Part shown: piece after piece, positions 3,040-28,112 of the stretch
Layout of the letters: each line of letters opens with the position of its first letter
Numbering within the stretch: the stretch's first letter is position 1
Assembly (NCBI GenBank): GCA_016934825.1
Contig: JAFGSB010000114.1
Location: 1 to 53,689, forward strand
From: Candidatus Zhuqueibacterota bacterium
GTDB taxonomy: Bacteria; Zhuqueibacterota; Zhuqueibacteria; Residuimicrobiales; Krinioviventaceae
Length of the DNA stretch: 53,689 nucleotides
Direction of reading: 5' to 3'
Translations under genes and position numbers: made by a program
The notes under the pieces: model-generated
Database searches by the model: none
What the model saw: only the letters and a program-made list of their open reading frames with translations
What the model was told of the DNA's origin: nothing

Positions 3040-4896
3040 ATGACAGAAAATATCTTCAAGAATAAAAGATTATTACAAGATTTATTCATAAATATTGTTT
3101 TATTTTGCGCTTCTTATATTATAGCGTTTTTAGTTACGTATTATGGCAAATTGCCACCCGAAAGTTTTCGCATAATCCAGATAACCCTGCCTGTTGTTCT
3201 CGTTGTCAGAATAACAATATTTTTTGTCTTTCAGGTTTTTAGCGGTCAATGGAGGGATGCAAGTATATCTGATATGGTTGCCATAGGAAAGTCGGTGACC
3301 CTGAGTTCAGTAATCATAGCACTAATTATTTATTTTATTTTTAATATAAAAAGTATACCGGTTACTTTATATATAGTCGATTGGTTGGTTATAACAATCC
3401 TAACCGGATTTACACGGTTTTCGCAACGTCTGATTAACGAGCTTATCGTTAAAAAATCTGATAAAGTAAAACGCGTGTTGATCGTCGGGGCTGGTTCAAT
3501 CGGGAAACGATTGATCAAAGAAATGAAATCAAATTGGGAGATGGGGTATACTCCCGTTGCGTTGGTGGACGATAACCCGGCCAAAGTAAATCGTACAGTA
3601 TTAGGGGTCAAGGTACAGGGAACACGAAAAAGTATTCCACATATTGTAGAGACTTTGAAAGTTGATGAAATTATAATCGCTTTTTCCTACGCCAAAGGCG
3701 AGGTAATGCGGGAAATTGTCAAACTATGTCGTTTGTCAAATATACCTTTTAGAATAATAAACAAACATGAAGGTCCATTAGATCAAAAGACGATTGTCGA
3801 CAGAATACGACAGATCAAAATTGAGGATTTAATCGGCAGAGAACAAATCAATATTGAATTTGAGAAAATACAAAAATATATAGAGGGAAAACGGGTCCTG
3901 ATAACCGGAGCGGCAGGCTCTATCGGCTCGGAACTGTGTCGTCAAATCGCAAGGCTTAATCCTGAAAGATTAATCGCGTTTGACCGTTCCGAAAATGGCT
4001 TGTTTTATCTGGAACGTGAATTAATTGAAAAATTTCAGGATCTGGAATACTCGTTAGCCCTGGCCGATATTACCGATTTTATTGAAACGGATAATGTGTT
4101 TAATAATCATAAGCCCCATATTGTTTTTCATGCCGCCGCTTATAAGCATGTACCAATGATGGAATTACATCCGAGTCAGGCTGTAAAAAATAATGTGATG
4201 GGGACAAAGAATGTTCTCGATGTGTCAATACTGCACGGGACCAAGAAATTTGTTTTTATTTCAACCGACAAGGCAGTCAATCCGGTGAGTTTTATGGGGA
4301 TGACAAAACGTATCGCGGAACAACTGGTCCAGGGTTCTGATAATATTAACAAAACCAGATGTTTAGCTGTCCGTTTTGGTAATGTGATCGGGAGCAGTGG
4401 AAGTGTAATTCGGCTCTTCCAGGAGCAAATCAGTAAAGGCGGGCCGGTCACTGTTACGCATCCGGATGTGAAAAGATATTTTATGTCCATACCGGAAGCC
4501 GTGCAACTGGTATTGCAGGCGGCTGTGCTTGGAGAAGGCGGACAAACATTCCTGCTCAAGATGGGTGAGCTGATTAAAATTAATGATATTGCTAAAGAGT
4601 TGATTATGTTATCCGGAAATGGCTCTTCACAGGAAATCAAAATAAATTATACGGGCTTACGGTTTGGTGAAAAAATTATTGAAGAACTCTGGGAAGATTC
4701 CGAGGAATGCATGGAAAATGTTAATGAGAATCTTTATGTGTTAAAAAGTAAATCAACTAATAAATTTAATTTAAGAGAATTCAAAGGTAAAATAAACAAC
4801 ATTATCAGAGTTGCTTCGGCACAGGAAAAGAATTTAAACGGTTTTAAACACAAGCTCGAAGAGATTATTGAAGAGGGCCGTGCCATTATTAGATAG
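3040..4896 (+). CDS. Membrane nucleotide-sugar 4,6-dehydratase, CapD/WbpM/PglF type
   Basis: The 618-residue protein has about four N-terminal transmembrane helices (to about residue 135), a first Rossmann domain with GAGSIGKR (about 151) and a catalytic SDR domain starting at VLITGAAGSIGSE (about 286). The STDKAVNP segment and the following MGMTK give a catalytic Met-x-x-x-Lys arrangement in place of Tyr-x-x-x-Lys, which is usual for the long membrane dehydratases. These enzymes convert UDP-GlcNAc to the 4-keto-6-deoxy sugar. The aminotransferase, acetyltransferase and PglC-like transferase further down the operon suggest the next steps of a diNAcBac-like pathway. An AGGA box precedes the start. 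The substrate is inferred. Confidence 0.9.
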   Translation: MTENIFKNKRLLQDLFINIVLFCASYIIAFLVTYYGKLPPESFRIIQITLPVVLVVRITIFFVFQVFSGQWRDASISDMVAIGKSVTLSSVIIALIIYFIFNIKSIPVTLYIVDWLVITILTGFTRFSQRLINELIVKKSDKVKRVLIVGAGSIGKRLIKEMKSNWEMGYTPVALVDDNPAKVNRTVLGVKVQGTRKSIPHIVETLKVDEIIIAFSYAKGEVMREIVKLCRLSNIPFRIINKHEGPLDQKTIVDRIRQIKIEDLIGREQINIEFEKIQKYIEGKRVLITGAAGSIGSELCRQIARLNPERLIAFDRSENGLFYLERELIEKFQDLEYSLALADITDFIETDNVFNNHKPHIVFHAAAYKHVPMMELHPSQAVKNNVMGTKNVLDVSILHGTKKFVFISTDKAVNPVSFMGMTKRIAEQLVQGSDNINKTRCLAVRFGNVIGSSGSVIRLFQEQISKGGPVTVTHPDVKRYFMSIPEAVQLVLQAAVLGEGGQTFLLKMGELIKINDIAKELIMLSGNGSSQEIKINYTGLRFGEKIIEELWEDSEECMENVNENLYVLKSKSTNKFNLREFKGKINNIIRVASAQEKNLNGFKHKLEEIIEEGRAIIR

Positions 4897-4983: not shown

Positions 4984-5229
4984 ATGATTGAAAAAGAACA
5001 AATACGCAGCTTTATTTTTAAGAATTTTATGTTTAATGATAACTCCCGAGTCTTGAAAGACAATGAATCATTTTTAAACAGTGGTATTATTGATTCAACA
5101 GGGGTATTGGAATTGGTTTCTTTTGTTGAAGAAACTTTTAATATTCAGGTTAATGATGATGAACTGATACCTGAAAATTTAGATTCCGTAATCCAACTTG
5201 TTCAATTTATTCAAAATAAAAAAAAATAA
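4984..5229 (+). CDS. Acyl carrier protein
   Basis: This small acidic helical protein of 81 residues has a phosphopantetheine site at Ser38 in GIIDSTG, the equivalent of the DSL motif, followed by the usual helix (LELVSFVEETF). Carrier proteins hold acyl or aminoacyl groups as thioesters. It is a stand-alone carrier next to an asparagine-synthetase-like gene, a NAD-synthetase-like gene and an acyl-AMP ligase rather than next to fatty-acid synthesis genes. It therefore probably serves a dedicated modification pathway in the polysaccharide locus. The acyl group carried cannot be read from the sequence. Confidence 0.85.
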   Translation: MIEKEQIRSFIFKNFMFNDNSRVLKDNESFLNSGIIDSTGVLELVSFVEETFNIQVNDDELIPENLDSVIQLVQFIQNKKK

Positions 5230-5341
5230 TATAGTGGCCGTTGAAAAATAGGGGGATTTCTTCAAAAAATCATAATCTTGCATGATTTTTGTTGCATGAT
5301 ATTAATTAGATAACAGCAAGCTAATATTTTTAAAGGCTTTT

Positions 5342-7327
5342 ATGTGTGGTATTGCAGGAATCTTTGACTGTGTAAAATTAAATCCCGATATTTTACCGTC
5401 ATTTAAAAAATGTGTAAATATACTCGATCATCGCGGTCCTGACGGCAAGGGCATTTATTTCGATGAATTTACGGCATTGGGACAAGCCCGTTTAAGTATT
5501 TTCGATCTCGAAGGCGGGCAGCAGCCTATTCCCAATGAGGATGGTTCACTGTGGTTGGTATGTAACGGAGAAATTTTTAATTATATAGAGCTTCGCAAAG
5601 AATTGGAAAACAAGGGGCATGTTTTTTCAACCCACACAGATGTTGAGGTTATATTACACCTTTATGAAGATTATGGGGAAAATTTATTAAAATATCTTAA
5701 CGGTCAGTTTGCATTTGCTGTCTGGGACAGGAAAAAACATTCGCTGTTTTTGGCTCGCGATCATATCGGAATATGTCCCTTATACTATAGTAAAATTAAA
5801 GATCAGTTTGCTTTTGCTTCCGAAGCCAAAGCACTTTTTTTTCTGCCTGGTGTTACCCCTGAAATTAATTTACAGGCCCTGATTCAAACATTTACTTTTT
5901 GGGCTCCTTTGCCCGGGGAATCCATGTTTAAAAATATATTTGAACTGAAACCGGGCTATTTTATGTGGGTAAATGAGAAAAAAAGTTATACGCGACAGTA
6001 CTGGAAATGTGAATATCCCTCTGATGAAACAGGTTATATAACCGATCCCGTGCAGGCTGTTGATGAGGTATCTTTTTTACTTGAAGATGCGGTCAGGCTC
6101 AGATTAAGGGCGGATGTTCCGGTTGGCGCTTATTTGAGCGGCGGTCTGGATTCCTCTATTACGACATCGCTTGTAAAATTGAAAAATAATAACAAATTAA
6201 GAACATTCTCCATTGGCTTTGAGGATGTCAATTTTGATGAAACGTATTACCAGCAACTTGTATCAAAAAATTTAAATACCGACCATTCCGCTTTTCGTTG
6301 CAGTAATGAATCAATTGGTAACGTATTGGAACAGGTTGTCTGGCATACCGAAAAACCCATTTTGCGAACGGCGCCGGCGCCGTTATTTCAATTGTCCAAA
6401 TTCGTTAAAGAAAACGGTTTCAAAGTTGTGTTGACCGGAGAAGGCGCTGATGAGTTTTTCAGCGGTTATAATATTTATAAAGAAACTAAAATTCGCTGCT
6501 TTAATGCGCGGCAACCCGATTCAGCATTAAGACCGATGCTTTTTAGCAGGATATATCCCTATATCGCAACCAATAGCCGAACATTAAAGTTTTGGCAGAG
6601 TTTTTTTCAAAAAGATTTGCTGAAAACGGATGATCCGTTTTATTCTCACAGATTGCGATGGGGCAATAAAAGTTATTTAAGCGGTTTTTTAAGAAACGAT
6701 TTATTACAACATGTTTCTGATTATGATCCTGTGGACGATTTGCAAGACCGGCTTGCCGGTTATATCGATCCTTATGATCCTCTTACGCGGGCCCACTTTT
6801 TGGAGGCCCATATCTTTTTAGCGTCATATTTATTGAGCTCCCAGGGTGATAGAATGATTATGAGCCATGGCGTAGAGGGCCGTTATCCGTTTTTGGATAA
6901 GCGGGTAATTGAATTTGCCAATCGGTTGCATCCCAATTTTAAGTTAAGAATATTAAATGAAAAGTGGTTGTTAAAAAAGGCGTTTGCCGGTTTACTGCCC
7001 GACGAAGTGATTAAGAGGAACAAACAACCATACAGGGCGCCGGTAAAGGCCAGTTTCATGTCAAATAAAAATTTGATTGACAACTGGTTTTCTGAACAAA
7101 AATTGAATGAAACCGGTTTGTTTGACGTAGAAAAGGTAAATTTACTTCAGAAAAAAATATTTCAACCAGATACGGTTGTGTCTTCAAGAGATGAAATGGC
7201 TGTAACCGCAATACTCACCACAGAAATGCTGACCGATCAATATATTTTTAATAAACAATTATCATGGCTTCCGACGGATAAGTACATTAAGGTTCTGGAT
7301 TATCGCACCGAAAAAGCCATGGTCTGA
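5342..7327 (+). CDS. asnB: Glutamine-dependent asparagine synthetase-like amidotransferase
   Basis: The 661-residue protein has an N-terminal class II glutaminase domain with nucleophile Cys2 (MCGIAGIF) and an ATP-pyrophosphatase synthetase domain with SGGLDSS (266-272) and GEGADEFFSGY. Both catalytic halves look intact, so it should use glutamine nitrogen to amidate an adenylated carboxylate. True AsnB makes asparagine. Homologues inside exopolysaccharide clusters are often dedicated amidotransferases acting on uronic acids or acylated intermediates. The location between an acyl carrier protein and a NAD-synthetase-like gene favours a dedicated role, but this is inference. It is somewhat longer than typical AsnB, with an extended C-terminus. 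Confidence 0.88.
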   Translation: MCGIAGIFDCVKLNPDILPSFKKCVNILDHRGPDGKGIYFDEFTALGQARLSIFDLEGGQQPIPNEDGSLWLVCNGEIFNYIELRKELENKGHVFSTHTDVEVILHLYEDYGENLLKYLNGQFAFAVWDRKKHSLFLARDHIGICPLYYSKIKDQFAFASEAKALFFLPGVTPEINLQALIQTFTFWAPLPGESMFKNIFELKPGYFMWVNEKKSYTRQYWKCEYPSDETGYITDPVQAVDEVSFLLEDAVRLRLRADVPVGAYLSGGLDSSITTSLVKLKNNNKLRTFSIGFEDVNFDETYYQQLVSKNLNTDHSAFRCSNESIGNVLEQVVWHTEKPILRTAPAPLFQLSKFVKENGFKVVLTGEGADEFFSGYNIYKETKIRCFNARQPDSALRPMLFSRIYPYIATNSRTLKFWQSFFQKDLLKTDDPFYSHRLRWGNKSYLSGFLRNDLLQHVSDYDPVDDLQDRLAGYIDPYDPLTRAHFLEAHIFLASYLLSSQGDRMIMSHGVEGRYPFLDKRVIEFANRLHPNFKLRILNEKWLLKKAFAGLLPDEVIKRNKQPYRAPVKASFMSNKNLIDNWFSEQKLNETGLFDVEKVNLLQKKIFQPDTVVSSRDEMAVTAILTTEMLTDQYIFNKQLSWLPTDKYIKVLDYRTEKAMV

Positions 7328-7359
7328 TAATACATGATAAAAATATCAAAGGTGAGAGT

Positions 7360-8304
7360 ATGAGTTTTGATGCAAAACAGGTAGCCGATGAATTAGCTGC
7401 CTGGACCAGAAACCAGATTATCCATACACTAAAAAAAAGAGGCGCGGTTATTGGGATAAGCGGTGGAATTGATTCATCTGTTGTGGCTGCCATATGTGTA
7501 AGAGCAATCGGAGCTGAGCGCGTTACGGGTATTGCTATGCCTGAGAAGGATTCAAGTCCTGAAAGTTTGAAAATGGCTCGGGAACTTGCGGATAAATTAA
7601 ATATCGAAATGGTTGTTGAAGACATGACCACCGGTCTTGAAGGTATGGGCGCTTATCGAAGAAGAGATGAAGCCGTAAAAAAAGTATTTCCGGAATACCA
7701 ACCAGGCTGGGATTTTAAAATTACTTTACAATCCAATCCGCTGCTGGGAGATAGTTTAAATATTTTTAGGGGTACAGTGGCAGATAAAAAAGGACTGGTT
7801 CTTCAGAAGCGACTTCCATTAAAAGAATATTTGCAAATCGTTGCCGCGTCAAACATGAAACAGAGATTACGAATGACCATGCTTTATTATCATGCTGAAT
7901 TGAGAAATTATGTTGTTGCCGGCACCGGTAATAAAAACGAGCATGAACTTGGATTCTTTGTAAAATATGGAGACGGCGGATCGGATTTGGGACCCATTTT
8001 GCATCTTTATAAGACAAATATTTTTCAACTGGCAGAAGAACTTGATATTCCCCGTGATATTATCAGCCGTCCCCCAACGACCGATACCTATCCAGGAGAG
8101 GTAACACAGGAGGAATTTTTTTACCGTTTGCCGTTTGCAACGCTGGATTCCATCTGGGAAGCGTTTGAGGACGGCATTTCTGTGCAACATATCGCCCAAA
8201 ATTTGAATTTAAAGCAAGAGCAGGTTCAAAGAGTTATTACTGATATAAGTCAAAAAAAACAAAATACGGAATATTTACGACTGCCCCCCCTACGGGTAAG
8301 ATAA
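7360..8304 (+). CDS. nadE: NH3-dependent NAD synthetase family protein
   Basis: The 314-residue protein is an adenine-nucleotide alpha-hydrolase fold enzyme with the PP-loop SGGIDSS (34-40) and the NadE-type segment VAGTGNKNEHELGFF followed by KYGDGGSDLGPI. It has no glutaminase domain, so it would use free ammonia. NadE converts deamido-NAD to NAD. This copy is 32 bases behind the asparagine-synthetase-like gene and 24-36 bases ahead of the acyl-AMP ligase, an odd place for a housekeeping NAD gene. It is either the genomic nadE carried in the operon or a paralogue recruited to amidate a polysaccharide intermediate. A good Shine-Dalgarno (AAGGTGAG) precedes the start. Confidence 0.8.
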   Translation: MSFDAKQVADELAAWTRNQIIHTLKKRGAVIGISGGIDSSVVAAICVRAIGAERVTGIAMPEKDSSPESLKMARELADKLNIEMVVEDMTTGLEGMGAYRRRDEAVKKVFPEYQPGWDFKITLQSNPLLGDSLNIFRGTVADKKGLVLQKRLPLKEYLQIVAASNMKQRLRMTMLYYHAELRNYVVAGTGNKNEHELGFFVKYGDGGSDLGPILHLYKTNIFQLAEELDIPRDIISRPPTTDTYPGEVTQEEFFYRLPFATLDSIWEAFEDGISVQHIAQNLNLKQEQVQRVITDISQKKQNTEYLRLPPLRVR

Positions 8305-8340
8305 AAAAAGTTTTTAGACGAAACAGATATGAGGTGTCTT

Positions 8341-9873
8341 ATGCAGGTAAATAGTTTTCTTGAAAATGCCGCGAACAAATTCCCCGACAAAGAAGCTGTA
8401 TGGTATAATGATGAGTGGATGACCTATGCAGCGCTTGAAGAACTCGCGAATAAAGTAGCAAACTATTTAAAAAGTATTCAAATTAAAAGAGGTGACCGGG
8501 TCGCATTACTCTACGAGAATTCCTTTAATTATATCATACTATATTATGCGATTTTAAAAGTCGGCGCCGTAACGGTAGCATTGAATACTGAAACAACTGC
8601 GGATTCTTTAACTTATCTATTAAATGACTCCGGCGCAAAAGCGATCCTGACGAATGAAAAATTTTCAAAATATCTTGTTCCTGCAGTGAAGATGACGCCT
8701 TATTTAAAAACCGTAATTATCGACCAGGACGACCTTGGCGAATACCAGGAGATCGGTCATTGTAATCAAATCAGATTGAGTGATATTTATAATGACGGAA
8801 ACAGTTCACATCCGGACATTCGATGTATCGATATTGATCTGGCGTCAATTGTCTACACATCGGGCAGTACCGGTAAACCAAAAGGTGTTACCCTGACACA
8901 TCTGAATATTGTCAGCAATACGCAATCAATTGTCGATTATTTGGAATTAACATCGCAGGATCGAATTATGACGATCTTGCCTTTTTATTATATTTATGGG
9001 AAATCACTATTAAATACGCACTTTTATGCCGGTGGGTCAGTTGTAATTGATAATACTTTTGCGTATCCGAATGTTATTTTAAAAACAATGGATAAAACCA
9101 AAGTAACCGGTTTTGCTGGTGTGCCGTCCACATTTATAATTCTGCTGAACCGAACGAATGTACGTAAATATAAATTTGAATCTCTCCGGTATTTAACCCA
9201 GGCAGGAGGAGCAATGGCGCCCGCAATACAAAAAGAAGTCGCGGATGTCTTTGCACCGTCCAAGTTAGTCATTATGTACGGCGCAACGGAAGCGTCGGCG
9301 CGGTTATCTTATCTCGATCCTAAACATCTTGACCGTAAATGGGGATCAATAGGAAAAGCCATTCCAAATGTCGACTTGTTTGTCGCAGATGAAAGCGGCC
9401 AGGAATTGCCTGTCGGTCAGGTCGGAGAAATTGTGGCGCGTGGATCAAATATGATGGTTGGATACTGGAACGACCCGCAAGAAACTGAAAAAGTCCTGCG
9501 TAATGGTTTATATTATACAGGCGATTTGGGTAAAATGGATGAGGAAGGTTTTTTATATGTTGTCGGCAGGAAAAAGGATATGATCAAAGTCGGAGGCGAA
9601 CGGGTGAGTGCAAAAGAAGTTGAAGAAACTCTCCTGGAAATTGACAAGGTACATGAAGTCGCTGTAATTGGAATTGACGATCCGACATTGGGCGAAGCAA
9701 TAAAAGCCTATATTGTACCCAGAACCGATACGGTGATTACAAATGATGAGATTATTGAATATTTACGGAAAAAATTACCTGCTTATAAGCACCCCAAATA
9801 TATTGAGATTCGCCACAATTTACCCAAGAATGAGTCCGGGAAAATTTTGAAAACGGTCTTAAAGACAACTTGA
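8341..9873 (+). CDS. Acyl-CoA synthetase / AMP-dependent ligase
   Basis: This ANL-superfamily enzyme has the P-loop YTSGSTGKPKGV, the YGATEAS motif, the hinge YTGDLGKMDEEGF and GRKKDMIKVGGERVS, and the C-terminal catalytic lysine in NESGKILK. It should adenylate a carboxylic acid and pass it to CoA or to the acyl carrier protein encoded about 3 kb upstream. The first in-frame ATG is at 8329, but 8341 is preferred because GAGGTG sits six bases ahead of it; the product is then 510 residues. Similar ligases occur in exosortase-associated polysaccharide loci, but no exosortase gene was seen here. The substrate is unknown. Confidence 0.88.
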   Translation: MQVNSFLENAANKFPDKEAVWYNDEWMTYAALEELANKVANYLKSIQIKRGDRVALLYENSFNYIILYYAILKVGAVTVALNTETTADSLTYLLNDSGAKAILTNEKFSKYLVPAVKMTPYLKTVIIDQDDLGEYQEIGHCNQIRLSDIYNDGNSSHPDIRCIDIDLASIVYTSGSTGKPKGVTLTHLNIVSNTQSIVDYLELTSQDRIMTILPFYYIYGKSLLNTHFYAGGSVVIDNTFAYPNVILKTMDKTKVTGFAGVPSTFIILLNRTNVRKYKFESLRYLTQAGGAMAPAIQKEVADVFAPSKLVIMYGATEASARLSYLDPKHLDRKWGSIGKAIPNVDLFVADESGQELPVGQVGEIVARGSNMMVGYWNDPQETEKVLRNGLYYTGDLGKMDEEGFLYVVGRKKDMIKVGGERVSAKEVEETLLEIDKVHEVAVIGIDDPTLGEAIKAYIVPRTDTVITNDEIIEYLRKKLPAYKHPKYIEIRHNLPKNESGKILKTVLKTT

Positions 9874-13058: not shown

Positions 13059-13706
13059 ATGGAAAAAATTTGGATATATGGAACCGGTGGTCATGCTGCA
13101 GTAATTGCTGATCTGATATTATCAATGAACTATTTTGATATAATCGGATTTATAGATGATGATTCGAATAAAAAGGATAATATATTCTTTAATCATGCAA
13201 AAGTATTCAGCCCTGCTGAATTTGTTGAGGAAAATCAGAAACTGAATATTAATAATATCATTTTTGCGATAGGGAATAATCAGATAAGGAAAAAATTAGC
13301 GGAACAGTTCTCCGATTTAAATTTCCCGACAATCATACATCCAACAGCGATTATTGGCAAATTCGTTGAAATCGGTAGTGGAACTGTAGTTATGCCTTAT
13401 ACAATCATTGAGCCCGAAGCAAAAGTCGGCAAACATTGCATAATAAATAATAATGCCATCATTGGTCATAATTCGATTGTCGGAGATTATTGCCATATCG
13501 GCGGCCGTGTCGTTGTGAGCGGCGGGGTTAAAATCGGGCATTGTTGTTTAATGGGCGTCGGTACAACCGTTACTCCGATAACTTCGATCGGCAACCATTG
13601 TTTAATCGGAGCCGGTTCTGTAATTGCCAAAGATGTACCGGATAATTCTTTTATGTTTGGTAACCCGGCGCGAAAAGTAAATAATTATTTATCAAATTGC
13701 AAATAA
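13059..13706 (+). CDS. PglD/NeuD-like sugar O- or N-acetyltransferase
   Basis: The 215-residue protein has an N-terminal Rossmann-like domain (IYGTGGHAAVIADL) and a C-terminal left-handed beta-helix of hexapeptide repeats (about 95-200), ending in GNPARKV. This is the layout of PglD, NeuD and related enzymes. PglD acetylates UDP-4-amino-sugar with acetyl-CoA to give UDP-di-N-acetylbacillosamine, and its three pathway partners are all in this operon. The assignment as the last biosynthetic step is inference from context. The alternative is an acetyltransferase of the NeuD kind. Only a weak purine-rich ribosome site is present. Confidence 0.87.
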   Translation: MEKIWIYGTGGHAAVIADLILSMNYFDIIGFIDDDSNKKDNIFFNHAKVFSPAEFVEENQKLNINNIIFAIGNNQIRKKLAEQFSDLNFPTIIHPTAIIGKFVEIGSGTVVMPYTIIEPEAKVGKHCIINNNAIIGHNSIVGDYCHIGGRVVVSGGVKIGHCCLMGVGTTVTPITSIGNHCLIGAGSVIAKDVPDNSFMFGNPARKVNNYLSNCK

Positions 13707-14389: not shown

Positions 14390-16204
14390 ATGTGTAGCAA
14401 AAAGATATCAAGGAGATCCTTTATTAAAAAGACCGGGGAAGGTTCCGGTGCGATACTTGTTTCATCGTTGTTTGATAAATATGTATCCGCCAGCAATGCG
14501 AAAACCGAAGATTTTTCCCACATATATTATGCCAACGCCAACGGACCCGTTCAAAATCTGGAAAATGTGATCCAGATGATGGGGGGAATTCAGAATATAA
14601 TTGGAATTAATGATATTGTCGTAATTAAAACGAATGCCCAATGGTGGAACCAGGGTTCTCCCAATCTTGCGGCAACTAAAAGATTTGTTGAATTGATTTT
14701 GAATATTCCCGGTTTCATCGGAGAAGTAATAATATGCGACAATAACCACCGCTGGGACCCGACAAACAACGGGGCGTGGTCCACAACATTTGAAATCAAT
14801 TCCGATGTGCCCGGTGTTTCCAATTTAATGGAACTGATTAATTTGTTTCAAGATCAGGGGCACAAAAATGTCACTTATTATTGCTGGATAGATACCGGAA
14901 GCGATAAGAGCAAATTAACAACAGGGCCTGAGGGAGGCGACGGTTATGTATATTTACCGGATATTCAGTATGATAACGGCGGCACCGGAGACGATCATCG
15001 GGTAACCATAATGAGCTATCCTGTATTTACATCTTCATATAGCGGGGTGACAATTGATCTCAGAAAGGGCGCCTGGAAAGATGGATATTATACCGGACAA
15101 CCGGTGAAATTTGTAGTTTTTTCTGCTTTATCTTCTCATCACACAGCCAAGGTTACCAGTGCGATAAAAAATTTTTTTGGAGTTGTCGATCTTTCCGGTG
15201 ATAGCGATCCGCATAGTCCACCTTATGGAAAATTATATGAAGATTATTATAATTTTCATGCCTTTTCTTATAATAAATATGAACCGATAGAGCCTGTCCC
15301 CGGAGCAATGGGAGGGGCAGTGGGGACATTTTTAAGGAATGTGCGAATGCCCGAGCTTTTTGTGACCACTGCCGAATGGGTGGGGGTTGGCGATCGGACA
15401 GTTGCTGAAAAAGCAGAACAGATGGGAGCAATTGTCGCCAGCAAGGATCCTGTGGCGCTTGATTATTATAACACAAAGCATATCCTTTATCCGGCGGCAT
15501 TAAAGCAGCAAAAGAATTATGCGGAAGATTTTAATCCCGATAATATGGACATGCCTTTAAGAATGTATTTGGAAACATGTCATAACCAGGGAATTGGTAA
15601 TATTGATGAAGATAAAATAATTGTCCATACACCCCAGAATCCTGTAAATATTATCACGTTCAATGCCAGGATTGTGGATCAATATGTGGAATTATATTGG
15701 CAGGCTGAACAGGCTGAAAAGTTTTTTGGTTTTGAAGTTCAAAAAAGTAATGATAATTTGGAATTCAATAAAATCGGATTTGTTGAATATCGTGATAGAA
15801 CGAAAAATTATAATTTTTGGGATAAAAATATTTCTCAGAACAGACTTGTCTATCGTTTAAAACTGATTGACCGAAGCGGAGAATTCACTTACTCTGATGC
15901 AATAATTGTTGATATTGGCAGCGTTAATTCTTTTACGCTTAATCAAAATTATCCCAATCCTTTTAATTCGGAAACAATGATCCGGTTTTCGATATCACAA
16001 AATGAAAGAGTGTCACTCGACGTATATGATATAAAAGGACGTAATGTAAAATTATTATTAAATGAATTTAGACATCCCGGTAATTATTCGATAAAATGGG
16101 ATGGAACCGATAATGCCGGAAATAAAGTGGCTACAGGCATTTATATATATCGGTTGAAAATCAATAAACAAATTATCACAAAAAAAATGATATTGGTAAA
16201 TTAA
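14390..16204 (+). CDS. DUF362-type protein with Tat signal and type IX secretion sorting domain
   Basis: The 604-residue protein starts with a twin-arginine signal (SRRSFIKK, residues 8-15) and a short hydrophobic stretch. The central part resembles DUF362 proteins (DIVVIKTNAQWW, KDPVALDYYNTKHILYP); no CxxC iron-sulfur motif is visible. A fibronectin-like segment follows, then a C-terminal type A sorting domain (NQNYPNPFNSETMIRFS, DVYDIKGRNV, GIYIYRLKI, MILVN). This suggests Tat export and then type IX outer-membrane secretion. It is embedded in the polysaccharide operon, so it may act on or be anchored to the polymer. Its catalytic function is unknown. Confidence 0.8.
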   Translation: MCSKKISRRSFIKKTGEGSGAILVSSLFDKYVSASNAKTEDFSHIYYANANGPVQNLENVIQMMGGIQNIIGINDIVVIKTNAQWWNQGSPNLAATKRFVELILNIPGFIGEVIICDNNHRWDPTNNGAWSTTFEINSDVPGVSNLMELINLFQDQGHKNVTYYCWIDTGSDKSKLTTGPEGGDGYVYLPDIQYDNGGTGDDHRVTIMSYPVFTSSYSGVTIDLRKGAWKDGYYTGQPVKFVVFSALSSHHTAKVTSAIKNFFGVVDLSGDSDPHSPPYGKLYEDYYNFHAFSYNKYEPIEPVPGAMGGAVGTFLRNVRMPELFVTTAEWVGVGDRTVAEKAEQMGAIVASKDPVALDYYNTKHILYPAALKQQKNYAEDFNPDNMDMPLRMYLETCHNQGIGNIDEDKIIVHTPQNPVNIITFNARIVDQYVELYWQAEQAEKFFGFEVQKSNDNLEFNKIGFVEYRDRTKNYNFWDKNISQNRLVYRLKLIDRSGEFTYSDAIIVDIGSVNSFTLNQNYPNPFNSETMIRFSISQNERVSLDVYDIKGRNVKLLLNEFRHPGNYSIKWDGTDNAGNKVATGIYIYRLKINKQIITKKMILVN

Positions 16205-17459: not shown

Positions 17460-18956
17460 TTGGAAACGGAACCTAAATTAAAAAATGTGAATCTTAAAGA
17501 TCAATCGGTCTTTCTTGTAATTGGAAATACATTCCGGCAAGGGACTATTATGCTTCAGGGTATGATCCTTGCTCGTTTATTAACACCGGCGGATTTTGGA
17601 AGTTTTCGCCAGGTCATTTTGGTCATAACTTTATTATATACCTTTACGTATTTATCTATTGCTGAAAGCAGTTCATATTTTTTAGCCCGACTAAGCAGAA
17701 CAGACCAGAAAAAGTTTACTTTTCAGTCGTTGTTTGCTTATGTTATTATGGGTAATCTGGCATTGTTGATCATTATTTTGAGCCGCGATAAAATTGCTCA
17801 CTTGTTTAATAATCCTTCACTTGCAGAATTACTTCTTATTGCATCAATATTTCCAATGTCTATGATGGTGAATGTACATAGATCGGTATCGCTTGTAACT
17901 ATAGGCAAGGCGGAAATCAGCAGTATTTTGTCAATTGTATTTGCAGTATTACATGCGGGTACCATTTGTATTATAGCAGCATTGGGGTACCCGTTAATTG
18001 TTGCTTTAAAAGGTTATGCGGTTGTTTATTTTCTTGATTCAATCGTTTCCGTACTGTTAATGCTAAAATATATAGGTATCAAACCAAATATTGATATGGC
18101 CCTTATTAAGGAACAGTATAAATTTTCAATACCTTACTGGTTCAGCCTTTCAATTCTTTTTGCATATATGCAGATTCATAAATTATTGGTTTCATCAGTT
18201 TTTAATCCCGAAAAATTTGCCCTGTTTTCAGTCGGGGCAATGGAGTTGCCTGTAATCGGTAATATTGCCCAGCAAATCGCCCTGGTATTAATTCCGGTGT
18301 CCGTACAAATGCGTATGAGAGGAAAGACAGGTGAAGTCATAAATTTATGGGAAAAATCAGCGGCAAAAGTTGCGTTGATTACAATGCCTGTTTTTATGAT
18401 CCTGGTTTTTTCCGCAAAAACATTTATAGTCGCAGTGTGGGGGTCTTTATATGAAGACGCATGGGTTATATTTATCATCATATCATTATTAATGCCATTA
18501 AAGATATGTGATATTACATCATTATATAAAATAACAGGAAATACAAAATATGTTATTGTTTCGTCTGTTGCCGCATTAATTGTCGGTTTGGGCAGCGGCT
18601 ATTTACTGATAGCCCCCTTAGGTTTGTTGGGACCTGCTTTGGGTATGATATTAGGAAAACTTACTCAGATATATTTGGGTCTGTTTTTTATCAGAAAAGA
18701 TTTCCCGATAAAGCTGCACCAGGCATTTGCCTTTAAATATGTATGGAAAATTACGCTTGTCTCTTTTCTTGCCTGCGTCATAGCAAAGTTTGTTACTCTG
18801 AAAATAGATCAGCCGATTATTAATTTTATTTTGAATAGTATTATTGGCGGCGGTCTATTTCTGGTCTTTGCGTTAAAATTCAGCGTATTGAATGCCGAAG
18901 ATACCGCATTGATTAAAAAATGGATTACTTTAAAACCTTTATTTAAAAAAGCATAA
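17460..18956 (+). CDS. Wzx-type oligosaccharide flippase
   Basis: The 498-residue polytopic membrane protein has about 12-14 hydrophobic helices and the N-terminal signature of the polysaccharide transporter/MOP superfamily (GMILARLLTPADFGSFRQV). It should flip undecaprenyl-linked repeat units across the inner membrane, partnering with the Wzy-like protein 12 bases downstream. The likely start is a TTG at 17460, preceded by GGAG at about 17445; no ATG gives the complete first helix. A 164-base gap upstream separates it from the FemAB gene but holds no obvious terminator. Confidence 0.88.
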   Translation: METEPKLKNVNLKDQSVFLVIGNTFRQGTIMLQGMILARLLTPADFGSFRQVILVITLLYTFTYLSIAESSSYFLARLSRTDQKKFTFQSLFAYVIMGNLALLIIILSRDKIAHLFNNPSLAELLLIASIFPMSMMVNVHRSVSLVTIGKAEISSILSIVFAVLHAGTICIIAALGYPLIVALKGYAVVYFLDSIVSVLLMLKYIGIKPNIDMALIKEQYKFSIPYWFSLSILFAYMQIHKLLVSSVFNPEKFALFSVGAMELPVIGNIAQQIALVLIPVSVQMRMRGKTGEVINLWEKSAAKVALITMPVFMILVFSAKTFIVAVWGSLYEDAWVIFIIISLLMPLKICDITSLYKITGNTKYVIVSSVAALIVGLGSGYLLIAPLGLLGPALGMILGKLTQIYLGLFFIRKDFPIKLHQAFAFKYVWKITLVSFLACVIAKFVTLKIDQPIINFILNSIIGGGLFLVFALKFSVLNAEDTALIKKWITLKPLFKKA

Positions 18957-18968
18957 TAAAGTCGTAAA

Positions 18969-20393
18969 ATGAGTATAGTCCAAGAATCTATAGTTCAAAA
19001 CCACGTAAATAGTCAGGCGCACAGCGATACCAGCCGTGATTTCAGAAGAACTATGAAATGTTTGCTGGCATTATTTATTGTTTCGTGTATTGCCGCCCCC
19101 ATTTATTTTTTGTTCCACAGCCCAACGTATGCCATAGGTTTAATCGGCGCTACAGTGGTAGGTCTCAGTTTCTATCATACTCCTTTTGCTTTGATGTTTT
19201 TAATTTTTTTCTTCCCGTTAGAGGGGGCATTTGAGTTTAGTCAGGTGGGTATGGGGAGCCGTGTTATTGGAGTGGTCGTTTTTTTGAGCTATATTGTTAC
19301 ACGTTTCAGGGGTAAATTTTATATTTCAAAACCGTATTTATTGATTTTATTATTCAATCTTTTTGCCATATTGAGTATTTTATGGGCTGTAAATCAAAAT
19401 GTCGGTGTGGAAGGTAATAAATCTTTAACTCTTAACGTCATTTTAATATTTATTCTGCTCAATTCAACAAGTGATGTAAAACAATTGAAAATGTTGTTAT
19501 GGGCGTTGTATATCGGTGGTATTATAGTATCGATAATGGTTGTATTTGGTAATGTATCCTATGCAAGCGGAGGTGAAAGGATGGGGCGTGTTATTCTGGC
19601 CGAAGGTACAAGCCCCAATATTTTAGGAAATTCAATTCTTATGGCTTTCTTTGCCGGATTTTATTTTTTCAACGAAAAGAGTAAAATAAATAAATTTATT
19701 TTTTTTATTGCCGGTCCGCTTATGTTATATGCAATTCTGAATACGCAAAACAGAACCGCATTAGGCAATGCAGTTGTGTCTCCAATAATTGCTTTTTTAT
19801 TTTCGGCAAAAGGCAAATATCTGATAAAAAATATTGCAGGGATTATCGGGATAGGTATTCTGGGTTACGGCTTGCTCTACATAGCTCTTAATACCGCCAT
19901 ACTGTCAGATTTCGCAAAAGAACGTCTACGAGCTACCGACAGCAATCTGGAGGAAAGCGGTCGAATCGGTGTATGGAAAAAAGGCTTGGAATTCCTTTCC
20001 CAACGACCAATCAACGGCTGGGGATGGAAAAATTTTCCGGAGAAATTTCCGGTTCATCAAAAGTCGTTAACATCGGCTCATAATAATATTGTCGCCGTTG
20101 CCGGGGAGCTTGGTCTTATCGGCTTAGTTATGCTGCTTTTTATTTATTTTATGACATTCAAACAAATATTTAAAATATCACATCCGCCTTTACGCTGGAT
20201 GGCGATCGTATTTTTAATGTTTACATTAATCGCAGGAACGACTGAAACCACTATAATACAAAAAGGATTTTGGTACTCAATGGGTTTTACGTTACTTGGA
20301 ATAAAAATTTCCGAGGATATGGATGTTGAAGAAGAAAAAATTTCCGGGAATTCTAATAAAGCTTCTTATAGTGAGATATTAAATGCTAATTGA
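18969..20393 (+). CDS. O-antigen ligase / Wzy-like polymerase family protein
   Basis: The 474-residue integral membrane protein has about 10-12 helices and the Wzy_C region with QNRTALGN and, near residue 370, the SAHNNIVAVAGELGLIG segment typical of the large periplasmic loop and catalytic histidine area of WaaL/Wzy proteins. It either polymerises repeat units or ligates the polymer to an acceptor. Next to a flippase and glycosyltransferases and with a Wzc-like kinase in the operon, the polymerase role is favoured. The two roles cannot be separated by sequence alone. Confidence 0.85.
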   Translation: MSIVQESIVQNHVNSQAHSDTSRDFRRTMKCLLALFIVSCIAAPIYFLFHSPTYAIGLIGATVVGLSFYHTPFALMFLIFFFPLEGAFEFSQVGMGSRVIGVVVFLSYIVTRFRGKFYISKPYLLILLFNLFAILSILWAVNQNVGVEGNKSLTLNVILIFILLNSTSDVKQLKMLLWALYIGGIIVSIMVVFGNVSYASGGERMGRVILAEGTSPNILGNSILMAFFAGFYFFNEKSKINKFIFFIAGPLMLYAILNTQNRTALGNAVVSPIIAFLFSAKGKYLIKNIAGIIGIGILGYGLLYIALNTAILSDFAKERLRATDSNLEESGRIGVWKKGLEFLSQRPINGWGWKNFPEKFPVHQKSLTSAHNNIVAVAGELGLIGLVMLLFIYFMTFKQIFKISHPPLRWMAIVFLMFTLIAGTTETTIIQKGFWYSMGFTLLGIKISEDMDVEEEKISGNSNKASYSEILNAN

Positions 20394-21646: not shown

Positions 21647-22807
21647 ATGAATTATAACCTGAAAAAAAATATCTGTGTTTTCACCATTCATCGCGCCAAA
21701 GATGTTCGGGTATTGAACAGGCACTGCCGTTCCTTACAACGGTTGGGAATGAATGTCACGCTGATTGCTGTCTCGGAAAACGGCAGTTATGATGATGAGG
21801 GAATTAAGGTTATTGGTATCACCCGGTGGAAGGGCGGTATGCAGCGTTTAAAAACCCTGATTAAAATAACTGTTCTCGCATATAAACAAAAGGCTGATAT
21901 TTATCATTTTCATGACCCGGATTTGTTGTTTTTCGCTCCATTTTTGCGCCTTTTTACATTCAAACCCGTTGTATATGATATTCATGAATTTTATAGCCGC
22001 CAGTTGCCGATGAAATGTCCTGATGTTTTTCTGTTAAGAAAATTTGCAGGAATAATTATCTGGGTGATTGAATCATTTCTTGGCATGTTGTGCGGCTCGA
22101 TATCCGCTGTATATATGGATCATGTGAGACGTTTCTCCCGGCTTGGTTGTAAAACTGTATGGACGCCGAATTTCGCCTCTTTGGATGATTTTTCGGCGGA
22201 ACCGGTCACCGATGAAGTATGGGAGAAGCGGCGGTTCACCGTTATTCATACCGGTACATTGAGTCCCTCCCGTGGCTCCTTGATACTTTTGGATATTGCG
22301 CGGGAATTGAAAAAAAGACGCCCCGAAATAAATGTTATTATAACCCGCCGGTTCTGGTCCGAGCGACAGGAAAATGTAATGATGGAAAAATTATCGGAGC
22401 CCGGGTTTCAAAATGTTATAGAATTTGTACCGCACATGTCCGGCCGGGAATTACCCAAATTTGTCCGTCATGGTGGTGTTGGTTTGAGTTTGTTGCAGCC
22501 TGATGGCGAGTATTTACTACCTTCTCATGTCCCCACAAAATTTTTTGAATATATGTCCCAATCCGTGCCCATCGTGGCTTCGAATATGCCCTCGAGTTAT
22601 GAGATTGTCGATAATGAAAAAGTGGGTTTTGTAGTTGATGCCGGGGATGTTATGGCATATGTCGATTCAATTTTTAAGATCGTTGATAATCCTCAAATGG
22701 CAAAAGAAATGGGGGAAAACGGGCGTCAGGCATTTATAGAAAAATATAACTGGGGTATTTGTGAAAAGAATTTGGGTGAATTTTATTCCGGTTTATTGAA
22801 AAAATGA
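21647..22807 (+). CDS. GT4-family glycosyltransferase (2)
   Basis: The 386-residue GT-B protein has VFTIHRAKDVRVLNRHCR at the N-terminus, DIYHFHDPDLLFF and VVYDIHEF in the acceptor domain, and HVPTKFFEYMSQSVPIVAS in the donor-binding domain. It should add another sugar of the repeat unit. Its last four bases overlap the start of the lyase gene (ATGA), so the two are translationally coupled. The sugar is unknown. Confidence 0.85.
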   Translation: MNYNLKKNICVFTIHRAKDVRVLNRHCRSLQRLGMNVTLIAVSENGSYDDEGIKVIGITRWKGGMQRLKTLIKITVLAYKQKADIYHFHDPDLLFFAPFLRLFTFKPVVYDIHEFYSRQLPMKCPDVFLLRKFAGIIIWVIESFLGMLCGSISAVYMDHVRRFSRLGCKTVWTPNFASLDDFSAEPVTDEVWEKRRFTVIHTGTLSPSRGSLILLDIARELKKRRPEINVIITRRFWSERQENVMMEKLSEPGFQNVIEFVPHMSGRELPKFVRHGGVGLSLLQPDGEYLLPSHVPTKFFEYMSQSVPIVASNMPSSYEIVDNEKVGFVVDAGDVMAYVDSIFKIVDNPQMAKEMGENGRQAFIEKYNWGICEKNLGEFYSGLLKK

Positions 22808-24894
22808 AATCCTTCAAAAGATTATTTCAATTAGTCAAAAATTATGGTTTGGGTTTTCTCCTGTACCGGTTAAACTACGTGTTTGAACGAAAAACCGGAT
22901 TACAAAAACGTAAATTCAAACAAAAGAGATGGGAAAATATTCATCTGAATGAGTATTTTAAAGGTGATATTTATTCCCTGCTCAGCGCGGAACGTATTTT
23001 TTTCTTTACTGGTTCGCAATTACCTTTATGTAATAAATCCTGGCATGCCGATATAAAAAGTAAGGCCGAGGAAATCCTGCAAAACAGGTTTTTTTATTTT
23101 TTTAATAAGAGCTATTCTCTGGGCCAAAGTCCGGACTGGTTTGTAAATCCCGTTACTGGCGTCCGCGCCAGATCGGATGTTCACTGGTGTGAAATTAAAG
23201 ATTTTGATCCGCAGGTAGGGGATATTAAATTTATCTGGGAACCGTCGAGGTTTGCCTGGAGTTATCTGCTGGCGCGCGCCTGGGCCGTGACCCGGGAAAA
23301 GAAATATGTGGTTAAATTCTGGGAATTGTTTGAACACTGGCTGGAACACAACCAGCCAAATACGGGGGCGAATTATTATTGCGGCCAGGAGTGCTCGTTA
23401 AGGTTAATGGCCATGGTTTTTGCCCATTTTGCTTTTTATGATTCGCCTGTCAGTACGGACGACAGAAAAATAAAACTTTTAAAAGCCATAGCGGTACACG
23501 CGGAAAGAATAGATAAAAATATTCAATATGCCGTTTCTACCCGGACAAATCATTCCCTGACGGAATCGACCGGTTTATATACAGTCGGATTGTTATTCCC
23601 GGAGTTTAAACAATCCCGTCGCTGGAAAAAAAGCGGTAAACGAATTCTGGTCCGTGAGGCCATGAAGCAGATTTTTAATGATGGGGCTTATATTCAGCAT
23701 TCGATGAATTATCACCGGCTTATGCTGCAAACCGTTCTGTGGGCCATCCGGCTGGGACAGTTGAACAATGAAACATTTGTTCCAACATTTATCGAGCGGG
23801 TAAAAAAAGCCGTATATTTTATCTATCAGATGCAGGACCTTCAAACCGGTCGGGTACCGAATTACGGTTCCAATGACGGCGCACTGATTTTTCCGCTCAA
23901 TACGTGCGATTATCTTGATTACCGGCCGGTTATCCAGTCTTTATATTATTTGTTTTATCACAAAAAACTTTACGAGAACGGCCCCTGGGACGAGGATTTA
24001 ATATGGTTTTTCGGGGAGGAAGCAATCAAATCCATGCCGGCAAACATCAGGCAAAAAACCAGCGAATTCAGAGATGGGGGCTATTATACAATCAGGGGTG
24101 AAAAAAGCTGGGGCATGATACGCTGCCATAGTTATAAAACCCGACCAGGCCAGTTTGACGCCCTGCATCTTGATGTTTGGTCGCAGGGTATTAATATTAT
24201 GCGCGATTCAGGCTCCTTTATGTATAATTGTGATCCGCCCTGGAGGCATTATTTTTCCGGTACGCCAGCTCATAATACGGTAACGGTAGATGGTGAAAAT
24301 CAGATGACGAGAGGTGACCGGTTTATTCTCTTTGATTGGCTGCAGAGCAGTAAACCGACAATTTCAACAAAGGGAAACTGTACTTATTTTTCCGGCGCTC
24401 ATTTCGGTTATAAAAGACTGGGCGACGACATTGTGCATTTTCGTTCTGTTGCATTAACAGATGATTTGAACGCCTGGATCATTGTTGATGATATTGCCGG
24501 CAGCGGCTCCCACACGCTTAACCTGTACTGGCAAATTACCGGCAAAATTCTGCAAATTAAAAAAAATGTCGGTATACTTGAAATTGAAAACAGAATAGTA
24601 TATACCTATATACTTTCCCCAACAGATTTCACGATAAATCATTATTATGGAGATGAAGAAATACCCGCCGGTTTTTATTCGTTATATTATGGCGAAAGGT
24701 ACCCCGCCTCTGTTATAAACGTAAAAGCCGACCGGAAATTACCCGTCCGGCTGATCAGTGTTATATCCCCGGATAAACAATTAAATTTAAATTATTGTGA
24801 TACATCATTAACTTTAAGTAATGACCTTGGCCAACAAAAGCAATTTATACTTGACCGTAATCCGACTTTGGATAAAAGCGTATTTGAAAATTAA
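22804..24894 (+). CDS. Heparinase II/III-like polysaccharide lyase
   Basis: The 696-residue protein has the alpha/alpha-toroid N-terminal domain (about 60-370; STRTNHSLTESTGLY and QHSMNYHRLML are conserved segments with candidate catalytic Asn/His/Tyr) and the C-terminal heparinase II/III beta-sandwich (HLDVWSQGINIMRDSG, GTPAHNTVTVDGENQM). The family cleaves uronic-acid polymers by beta-elimination. No clear signal peptide is visible, which is odd for a periplasmic enzyme. In this setting it is probably a biosynthesis-linked lyase that trims or releases the polymer, as in alginate and similar loci. The presence of uronic acid in the polymer is inferred from this gene only. Confidence 0.85.
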   Translation: MKSFKRLFQLVKNYGLGFLLYRLNYVFERKTGLQKRKFKQKRWENIHLNEYFKGDIYSLLSAERIFFFTGSQLPLCNKSWHADIKSKAEEILQNRFFYFFNKSYSLGQSPDWFVNPVTGVRARSDVHWCEIKDFDPQVGDIKFIWEPSRFAWSYLLARAWAVTREKKYVVKFWELFEHWLEHNQPNTGANYYCGQECSLRLMAMVFAHFAFYDSPVSTDDRKIKLLKAIAVHAERIDKNIQYAVSTRTNHSLTESTGLYTVGLLFPEFKQSRRWKKSGKRILVREAMKQIFNDGAYIQHSMNYHRLMLQTVLWAIRLGQLNNETFVPTFIERVKKAVYFIYQMQDLQTGRVPNYGSNDGALIFPLNTCDYLDYRPVIQSLYYLFYHKKLYENGPWDEDLIWFFGEEAIKSMPANIRQKTSEFRDGGYYTIRGEKSWGMIRCHSYKTRPGQFDALHLDVWSQGINIMRDSGSFMYNCDPPWRHYFSGTPAHNTVTVDGENQMTRGDRFILFDWLQSSKPTISTKGNCTYFSGAHFGYKRLGDDIVHFRSVALTDDLNAWIIVDDIAGSGSHTLNLYWQITGKILQIKKNVGILEIENRIVYTYILSPTDFTINHYYGDEEIPAGFYSLYYGERYPASVINVKADRKLPVRLISVISPDKQLNLNYCDTSLTLSNDLGQQKQFILDRNPTLDKSVFEN

Positions 24895-26728: not shown

Positions 26729-26801
26729 TCGATTTGGAATAGCTAACAAAAAATAACACTTAAATTTATTTATGTGGGCAAAGTCAGGCAGGGTGAATGA
26801 T

Positions 26802-28112
26802 ATGATATCATTGGACGGAATGAGAAAACAAATCTTTTGGATTTTAGACTGGTTAAAAGGAAATCCGATCAAACGGCATATTCAGGAATTAGAGTTGTCG
26901 TTTAGCAGTCCGGGTGAAATAGTGGAATTGAATAAAATAAGGTTGAACAAATTATTAAAACATGCATGCGAGACAACGGAATTTTATAAAAAATACAACT
27001 CATTCCAAACACTTTCGGATTTCCCGGTTATACAGAAAATAAATATTAAAGATAATTATAAAGGATTTTTATCAAACGCATATAAAAAGAAATACCTGAT
27101 CACAACAAAAACCAGCGGTTCTTATGGAGTGCCGTTTGTCTTTTATCTCACCCGAAACAAGTATTACCGACGATTAGCGGAGATTTTGTATTTTAATCAA
27201 AAAGCGGGATACCGGTTGGGGCAACCATTTGTACAGGTCAGGACCTCAAAATTCAGCAGGTTGTCTTTATTTATGAATAATTGTGTTATCATTAATCCCA
27301 CTGTTATTAACAACGAATGGCTGGAACAACAGCGACAAATTTTGAAAAACAAAAAATTTCAGTTTTTAATTGCGTGGCCGGGAGTATTGATTAATATCGC
27401 GCATTATTGTTTACAACATGGTGATACGGCCGATGATTTTTCAATTAAAGGAATTGTTTGCAGCGCCGAACCTTTATCCGGTAATTCACGTGAGACTTTT
27501 GAAAAAGTATTTGGATGCCCGGTTTATGACCGGTATGCTTCTCAGGAACTGGGCGTAATCGCGCATGAGTGCAAAAAGTGCGGTGTTTATCATTTGAACC
27601 ATGCCAGTTTGTTTATTGAAATTTTGTCTATGTACAGCAATAAACCGGTTGAGCCCGGGCAAGCCGGACGTGTAGTTGTGACGGATCTTTTTTCTCATGC
27701 CATGCCGATCATCCGGTATGATACGGGTGATATAGCCGTTTTGGAAGAAAAAAACTTTGAATGTGGATACATTCCAAGTGTAAAAAAAATTGAAGGGCGC
27801 ATGATTGAGACGGTTTATAATACCTCAGGCAAAGTCGTTAACTGGGGTGCAATTGGCGATATTATCGAAAAAGATAAAGAGACCATAGATAATATAATAC
27901 AGTATCAATTCATTCAAAAAAATAAAGATAATTATGTTATCAAACTTGCTGTAAAAGATACTTTTAAAAATGAAAAATATATCTATACGCAATTTAAAAA
28001 TTTATTAGGACAGGATGCACACATAAAATTCGAATATGTGGATACAATAGAGCCCTTGCCATCCGGGAAGCGACCGATAATTATTAATCAATCTTTTTTA
28101 AAGGCGGCATAA
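26802..28112 (+). CDS. CapK/PaaK-like AMP-dependent ligase
   Basis: The product resembles phenylacetate-CoA ligase/CapK proteins: TKTSGSYGVPFVF (P-loop), YDRYASQELGVIAHEC, HLNHASLFIEI and IIRYDTGDIAVL, with a C-terminal domain ending LPSGKRP. It should form an acyl-adenylate. CapK-type proteins are common in capsule clusters, though their substrates are mostly unknown. An ATG at 26772 is possible, but 26802 is favoured because GGGTGA lies six bases upstream; the product is then 436 residues. It is separated from the main operon by about 670 bases and has its own sigma-54-like promoter, so it is probably regulated separately. Confidence 0.82.
   Translation: MISLDGMRKQIFWILDWLKGNPIKRHIQELELSFSSPGEIVELNKIRLNKLLKHACETTEFYKKYNSFQTLSDFPVIQKINIKDNYKGFLSNAYKKKYLITTKTSGSYGVPFVFYLTRNKYYRRLAEILYFNQKAGYRLGQPFVQVRTSKFSRLSLFMNNCVIINPTVINNEWLEQQRQILKNKKFQFLIAWPGVLINIAHYCLQHGDTADDFSIKGIVCSAEPLSGNSRETFEKVFGCPVYDRYASQELGVIAHECKKCGVYHLNHASLFIEILSMYSNKPVEPGQAGRVVVTDLFSHAMPIIRYDTGDIAVLEEKNFECGYIPSVKKIEGRMIETVYNTSGKVVNWGAIGDIIEKDKETIDNIIQYQFIQKNKDNYVIKLAVKDTFKNEKYIYTQFKNLLGQDAHIKFEYVDTIEPLPSGKRPIIINQSFLKAA

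Follow-up and report, generated by a model that had tools for sequence, protein, structure and literature searches.

In the biosynthesis of the glutarimide polyketides, an AsnB homologue was proposed to turn malonyl-ACP into malonamyl-ACP (ACP: acyl carrier protein; PMC7756379). A cassette of four genes that resembles these starter enzymes (SmdFGH, ChxBCD, LtmHCD, MgsHCD and GdsBCD; PMC7756379) is described here from a stretch of 53,689 nucleotides of Candidatus Zhuqueibacterota bacterium (assembly GCA_016934825.1, contig JAFGSB010000114.1; the whole stretch analysed is called the window). The cassette, at positions 4984-9873, encodes an ACP, an AsnB-type amidotransferase, a NadE-like PP-loop enzyme (NadE2) and an acyl-AMP ligase of the ANL family. 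Both systems contain a discrete ACP and an AsnB homologue, and in the cassette the two genes are adjacent, as in starter systems of the malonamyl-ACP type. However, loading in the glutarimide systems is done by an acyltransferase instead of an ANL ligase, the product passes to a polyketide synthase, and there is no counterpart of NadE2. No description of an ACP/AsnB/NadE2/ligase cassette was found in searches of the open-access literature.

Related ligase, AsnB and FemAB proteins are also known from the surface polysaccharide loci of the XrtA/PEP-CTERM type (TIGR03098, TIGR03108 and TIGR03019). The cassette differs from these loci in its constant NadE-like member and in its scores, which stay well below the cut-offs of the XrtA-associated models (ligase: 425 bits against TIGR03098, cut-off 592; AsnB: 404 bits against TIGR03108, cut-off 817). 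Moreover, the genome has no exosortase (no PF09721 match), and the exosortase/PEP-CTERM link proposed in an earlier note on this DNA was abandoned. In the AsnO/Ngg pathway, an AsnB-type enzyme encoded in a short stand-alone operon serves the synthesis of N-acetylglutaminylglutamine amide. Here the partner enzymes are different from those of the cassette, and the cassette AsnB reaches 335 bits against the AsnO/Ngg model (TIGR03104, cut-off 570).

Two further systems are similar in their setting. The N-acetyl sugar amidotransferases WbuX, WbpG and PseA (TIGR03573) are, like NadE2, synthetase-only PP-loop enzymes in surface polysaccharide loci, although they form another family. They usually work together with HisH/HisF. 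The tetronate genes of Vibrio cholerae O1 are not known to include an amidotransferase pair. In this case (wbeL and neighbours; PMC3441752), a dedicated set of enzymes makes the acyl group for a 4-amino-sugar of a surface polymer.

The four genes of the cassette

The four open reading frames (ORFs, called mechanically throughout) were found where the earlier note had placed them in tandem, with strand and families confirmed:

4984-5229, + strand: acyl/peptidyl carrier protein (ACP), 81 residues; PF00550, 21.3 bits (cut-off 20.8); GIIDST attachment motif
5342-7327, + strand: AsnB-type glutamine-dependent amidotransferase, 661 residues; TIGR01536, 486.6 bits; MCG start; SGGLDSS
7360-8304, + strand: NadE2, a PP-loop synthetase of the NadE fold without glutaminase domain, 314 residues; NCBIfam NF002048/PRK00876, 417.6 bits
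8329-9873, + strand: ANL acyl-AMP ligase, 514 residues; PF00501 (AMP-binding), 295.8 bits; YTSGSTGKPKG

The best NCBIfam model for the ACP is ACP_for_OlsHI, below its cut-off, and the motif GI[IV]DS is found in most of the ACP homologues. AsnB belongs to the glutamine-dependent family: the N-terminal Cys of the glutaminase and the SGGLDS residues of the synthetase are both intact, as had been read from Cys2 and SGGLDSS. Across 24 homologues, the equivalents of the Cys, N74, G75, E76, D98, SGGLDSS, E348, D351 and K449 are invariant or nearly so. In a computed model of the human enzyme, the counterparts of E348 and D351 contact the alpha-carboxylate and alpha-amino groups of beta-aspartyl-AMP (PMC6748925). 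These two positions are invariant in the homologues. This would fit a substrate resembling an amino acid, although it may also be a general trait of the family.

Conservation and co-occurrence

The four genes form a conserved set, and within the home phylum (Zhuqueibacterota) the pairing of NadE2 with AsnB is obligate. A scan of named genomes with motifs from six close relatives, in which distant members are under-sampled, gave 50 loci. When more genomes from the phylum were added, the number of distinct NadE2 loci examined rose to 55, many of them on truncated contigs; most carriers are draft genomes. Partner genes were identified by phmmer with the window proteins as queries, and the neighbourhoods of 20 canonical NadE genes served as control. 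An ACP is encoded near 37 of the 55 NadE2 genes, AsnB near 36 and the ligase near 33, with all three present at 24 loci. Near the canonical NadE genes, by contrast, neither ACP nor AsnB was seen (0 of 20 each) and a ligase only once (weak). NadE2 is thus accompanied by these partners more often than by chance. About ten phyla share the set, whose genes come in at least nine different orders, and the gaps within it are short (median 14 bp; below 60 bp in 78 of 100). The conserved four-family set that had been postulated therefore recurs far beyond the strain with varying order, and an arrangement unique to this strain is ruled out.

Of the 82 genomes of the home phylum, 17 encode NadE2; 16 of the matches exceed the cut-off and one is cut by a contig end. 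AsnB is present in 18 genomes, namely in all 17 with NadE2 and in one of the 65 without it (G013). The corresponding Fisher value of 1.1e-16 is inflated by relatedness, although the 17 genomes span 11 families. In G055, G056, G062 and G066 the genes are spread over different contigs, yet they are present together. At the same threshold, AsnB was found in 17 of the 20 genomes reached via the named loci, most of which are outside the phylum.

As a separate observation, two different NadE2-type genes are located within the same ACP region in two loci of Zixibacteria (L065 and L090).

NadE2 is a second, remodelled NadE

The NCBIfam model NF002048, whose cut-off of 313 bits is exceeded by NadE2 and its relatives (389-532 bits), carries the name NAD(+) synthase. 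NadE2 is nevertheless neither the only copy in its genome nor part of a NAD operon: a check for a second nadE, as the earlier note had proposed, revealed a glutamine-dependent NadE of 594 residues encoded at another place. A separate canonical NadE was seen in 22 of 24 NadE2 carriers. In the home order, 20 of 22 genomes have a NadE-type match and only six, this genome included, have NadE2. In a tree, the NadE2s are separate from the canonical enzymes, and the home-phylum members are scattered over several places. This scatter would fit lateral transfer, without proving it.

The fold and the ATP-pyrophosphatase core are common to NadE2, the NAD synthetases (2e18 and 1xng) and the nicotinamide mononucleotide (NMN) synthetase of Francisella (3fiu). 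The latter enzyme illustrates that a NadE is capable of a change of substrate (PMC3376133). NadE2 retains the PP-loop (SGGxDS) and the core residues, and Foldseek ranks NAD and NMN synthetases highest, with identities of about 16-26%. What sets NadE2 apart from the solved enzymes, besides its operon and its coexistence with a canonical NadE, is a family-specific insertion of about 50 residues (99-152), in which Y99, K120, N134 and R151 are nearly invariant. Characterised NadEs have no large insertion before the NxxxRxR helix, a domain layout from which NadE2 departs; the insertion is absent from canonical NadE, from E. coli NadE and from a NadE of Alkaliphilus. In the AlphaFold model, which is of high confidence (predicted local distance difference test, pLDDT, 94.7), it is folded as one helix and three strands. 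In addition, the P2-loop region of the cassette enzymes reads D-T-Y/F, and C-terminal residues are changed in comparison to NAD synthetases.

The Alkaliphilus NadE (L150 6380-7699, 439 residues, without insertion) is encoded on a plasmid, in an operon with nicotinate phosphoribosyltransferase, NUDIX and isochorismatase genes.

Stand-alone operons in rhizobia

Plasmids were searched by tblastn, and 118 records contained NadE2 (about 43-48% identity), mostly megaplasmids of Sinorhizobium, Ensifer, Mesorhizobium, Shinella and Azospirillum. On pSymB of S. meliloti, the order is asnB-ACP-ligase-nadE, with genes that overlap or nearly touch, surrounded by ordinary metabolic genes and minCDE. The same type of four-gene operon is present in strain 1021, Mesorhizobium ciceri, Shinella and Nitratireductor, and a permuted version in Mesorhizobium AR07. 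In strain 1021, NadE2 is encoded at 1450615-1451538 of pSymB (NC_003078).

Upstream of asnB in Shinella, Nitratireductor and Roseateles, a protein of 358-370 residues is encoded that resembles a GNAT transferase by eye, with no family match. Homologues adjoin the M. ciceri operon and lie 10 kb from the S. meliloti operon. Members of this family (358-373 residues) beside or near rhizobial cassettes are L146 3099-4208, L148 4077-5189, L149 4134-5210, L147 9009-10124 and L142 23366-24487.

The cassette travels between very different bacteria, among them a plant symbiont (S. meliloti). As the four genes stand alone on pSymB in a genetically tractable host, their product can be sought there directly. 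Overall, a widely shared biosynthetic unit is masked because its members bear the names of housekeeping proteins, namely NAD(+) synthase, asparagine synthase and acyl carrier protein, and automatic annotation would assign NadE2 to NAD metabolism. NadE2 is probably a further case of a NadE recruited from NAD synthesis, with a simple sequence marker.

Accessory genes and the acceptor

The acyltransferases near the cassette vary by lineage. FemAB-like proteins are found mainly in the home phylum and GNAT-like proteins in rhizobia, while Acyl_transf_3 occurs in nine loci, belonging to Chloroflexota wherever the lineage was checked. FemAB, which had been considered as a constant partner, is a local one only (six distinct loci, mostly in the home phylum). 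Type IX sorting tails, another supposed link, are not enriched (10 of 55 NadE2 loci compared to 3 of 20 controls); in addition, type IX secretion is not known from the lineages of many carriers. Recognisable polysaccharide genes lie with 26 of the 55 NadE2 loci and with 4 of the 20 controls (p 0.04), so that a polymer acceptor is likely here and not general among carriers. Transfer to a polymer, as the earlier note had it, is plausible in this genome, but in rhizobia the cassette stands by itself.

Single loci show other accessory genes. A dedicated phosphopantetheinyl transferase is encoded next to an Oscillochloris cassette, and genes for a glutamine synthetase and a UDP-N-acetylglucosamine 2-epimerase adjoin the cassette in two Zixibacteria loci (L062 and L064). 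In G013, where ACP, ligase and AsnB occur without NadE2, the next gene encodes a WbuX-like PP-loop protein (L131 6724-7755; 148.5 bits against a cut-off of 203); HisH/HisF partners were not seen within the stretch that was read. This is a single case of a WbuX-type enzyme in the NadE2 slot. A search for anti-phage defence gave no PADLOC match.

Two more observations concern neighbouring genes. In G049 (L138 13175-17934), ACP and NadE2 are encoded beside FabD-like, HMG-CoA-synthase-like and enoyl-CoA hydratase genes, a set of the polyketide beta-branching type. Directly 3' of the Bellilinea cassette lies a fusion of ATP sulfurylase and adenosine 5'-phosphosulfate kinase (L052 10049-11803 and L056 10051-11805), which hints at a sulfated product.

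Proposed mechanism and alternatives

From the observed conservation, operon structure, AsnB-NadE2 pairing and separate canonical NadE, a chemistry can be proposed on the basis of the enzyme families. The cassette is read as a self-contained, mobile amidation module based on an ANL ligase and an ACP, in which NadE2 is not a NAD synthetase (estimated probability about 0.5). The substrate that the ligase adenylates and loads onto the ACP would be a carboxylic acid, probably a small diacid or an amino acid. Subsequently, AsnB would amidate a carboxylate of the ACP-bound unit with glutamine, in the manner proposed for malonamyl-ACP. NadE2 would be an adenylating synthetase of the ammonia type whose substrate side has been remodelled, and would accomplish a second ATP-dependent nitrogen transfer on the same product; this step is suggested by its obligate co-occurrence with AsnB, the retained ATP-pyrophosphatase core and the new insertion. 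The likeliest output of the four genes is, as the earlier note anticipated, an amidated or aminoacylated group. In the last step, a locus-specific acyltransferase would move the amidated acyl group to its acceptor. In the window, the FemAB-like or PglD-like enzyme may transfer it to the 4-amino-sugar of the polysaccharide; in other lineages, membrane acyltransferases or the GNAT-like protein beside the rhizobial cassettes may take this role. The cassette thus probably makes an amide-bearing building block, which here would decorate a surface polysaccharide.

A more specific version, which is speculative and rather improbable, has AsnB and NadE2 acting consecutively on one carbon, from carboxylate to amide to carrier-bound amidine, with NadE2 using ATP to activate the amide and adding a second nitrogen to it. 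NadE2 would then be a NadE-derived amidine synthase, with the role that WbuX-type enzymes have for acetamidino sugars; an enzyme of the WbuX type occupies the G013 slot. Such a sequence would account for the constant pairing of two amidating PP-loop enzymes.

Several observations weigh against the amidation module. Related genomes are non-independent points, no AsnB was found at the threshold used in the genomes of L088, L094 and L095, and 7 of the 55 NadE2 genes have no cassette partner nearby. Recognisable polysaccharide genes are present at only about half of the loci. Two drafts (G025 and G028) have NadE2 and no canonical NadE was seen in them. Finally, NadE2 keeps the whole NadE fold and the ATP-site residues, so that activity on nicotinic acid adenine dinucleotide would be compatible with its sequence.

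An alternative, though unlikely, is that the product of the four genes is a free small molecule (a compatible solute, signal or pseudopeptide) formed via three carboxylate activations, comparable to the AsnO/Ngg synthesis, the surface context being secondary. The stand-alone operons and the loci without surface genes would fit such a product, as would the match of AsnB to the N-acetylglutaminylglutamine amidotransferase model. However, this match is far under its cut-off, about half of the loci do contain polysaccharide genes, and no dedicated exporter is constant.

AsnB homologues make uronamides in some O-antigens. Two separate amidations might accordingly be combined in a polysaccharide-specific pathway, NadE2 acting on a nucleotide-linked carboxylate (e.g. 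a nucleoside diphosphate (NDP)-uronate) and the ligase, ACP and AsnB on an acyl side group. The ancestor of NadE2 binds a dinucleotide, amino-sugar and NDP-sugar genes lie beside the cassette of the window and several others, and the G013 slot is filled by a sugar amidotransferase type. Against this, the rhizobial operons have no adjoining sugar genes and uronate-forming genes are an inconstant partner; the proposal is similarly unlikely.

It is more doubtful still that NadE2 is a genuine NH3-dependent NAD(+) synthetase, placed beside the cassette incidentally or for local NAD supply. The fold, the identity to solved NAD synthetases, the conserved ATP site, the NCBIfam name and the two drafts mentioned above would agree with this function. 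It is opposed by the separate canonical NadE of most carriers, by the AsnB pairing in 17 of 17 genomes with no such partners around canonical NadE, and by the conserved insertion, which is lacking in a homologue from a real NAD-salvage operon (Alkaliphilus).

A system for sorting or surface anchoring that is linked to exosortase or type IX secretion and uses FemAB for the transfer, for which the XrtA-associated models (the best specific models for ligase and AsnB) and the type IX tails and two FemAB genes of the window might speak, is very improbable and largely refuted as a general explanation by the missing exosortase, the low scores, the unenriched tails, the few FemAB loci and the rhizobia and Chloroflexota among the carriers.

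Genomic context of the cassette

The source assembly comprises 5.39 Mb in 179 contigs and is 95% complete. At the start of the window, an export-type protein and a Wzc-like kinase are encoded upstream of the PglF-type dehydratase. All genes that follow are on the + strand, in the order PglF, ACP, AsnB, NadE2, ANL ligase, PglC, PglE, FemAB-like 1, PglD, DUF218, DUF362 with a type IX tail, FemAB-like 2, Wzx, candidate Wzy and glycosyltransferases. These genes are predicted to form a surface polysaccharide locus of the Wzx/Wzy type, capable of forming a 4-amino-sugar of the bacillosamine type (PglF/C/E/D set). Its context features are:

3040-4896, + strand: PglF-type NDP-sugar 4,6-dehydratase (amino-sugar synthesis); PF02719, 357 bits
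9972-10571, + strand: PglC-type initiating sugar-phosphate transferase; PF02397, 232 bits
10697-11902, + strand: PglE-type DegT aminotransferase; PF01041, 387 bits
11941-13023, + strand: FemAB/GNAT-like transferase 1, candidate acyltransferase for the cassette product; PF13480 (Acetyltransf_6), 36 bits, over the cut-off
13059-13706, + strand: PglD-type hexapeptide acyltransferase, second candidate acyltransferase; PF17836, 68.6 bits, and PF00132, 64.3 bits
16228-17295, + strand: FemAB/GNAT-like transferase 2; PF02388 (FemAB), 35 bits, over the cut-off
17460-20393, + strand: Wzx-type flippase (PF13440, 77.8 bits for 17460-18956) and candidate Wzy polymerase, the second ORF, assigned by position and sequence only

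Both FemAB-like genes that had been described as following the cassette in the operon are real, but neither follows it directly. The PglC and PglE genes lie between the cassette and the first, and PglD, DUF218 and DUF362 precede the second.

The DUF362 protein (14390-16204), encoded within the polysaccharide operon, combines a Tat-like signal with a C-terminal tail of the type IX kind and is also conserved in L054 and in another locus of its genus (L041). DUF362 was also considered as a recurrent partner of the cassette. Most of the early matches were to the type IX tail of the query. Once this tail had been cut off, the matches were confined to the window, L046 and L054, together with distant DUF362 proteins in some Chloroflexota. 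As few loci were left and DUF362 is common in these genomes, the association was dropped.

Farther downstream, an ORF of 446 residues with no Pfam match (26772-28112) is flanked by glycosyltransferases and proteins with type IX tails. A Heparinase II/III-like protein (22804-24894) is encoded amid glycosyltransferases, which suggests a uronate-containing polymer or its trimming.

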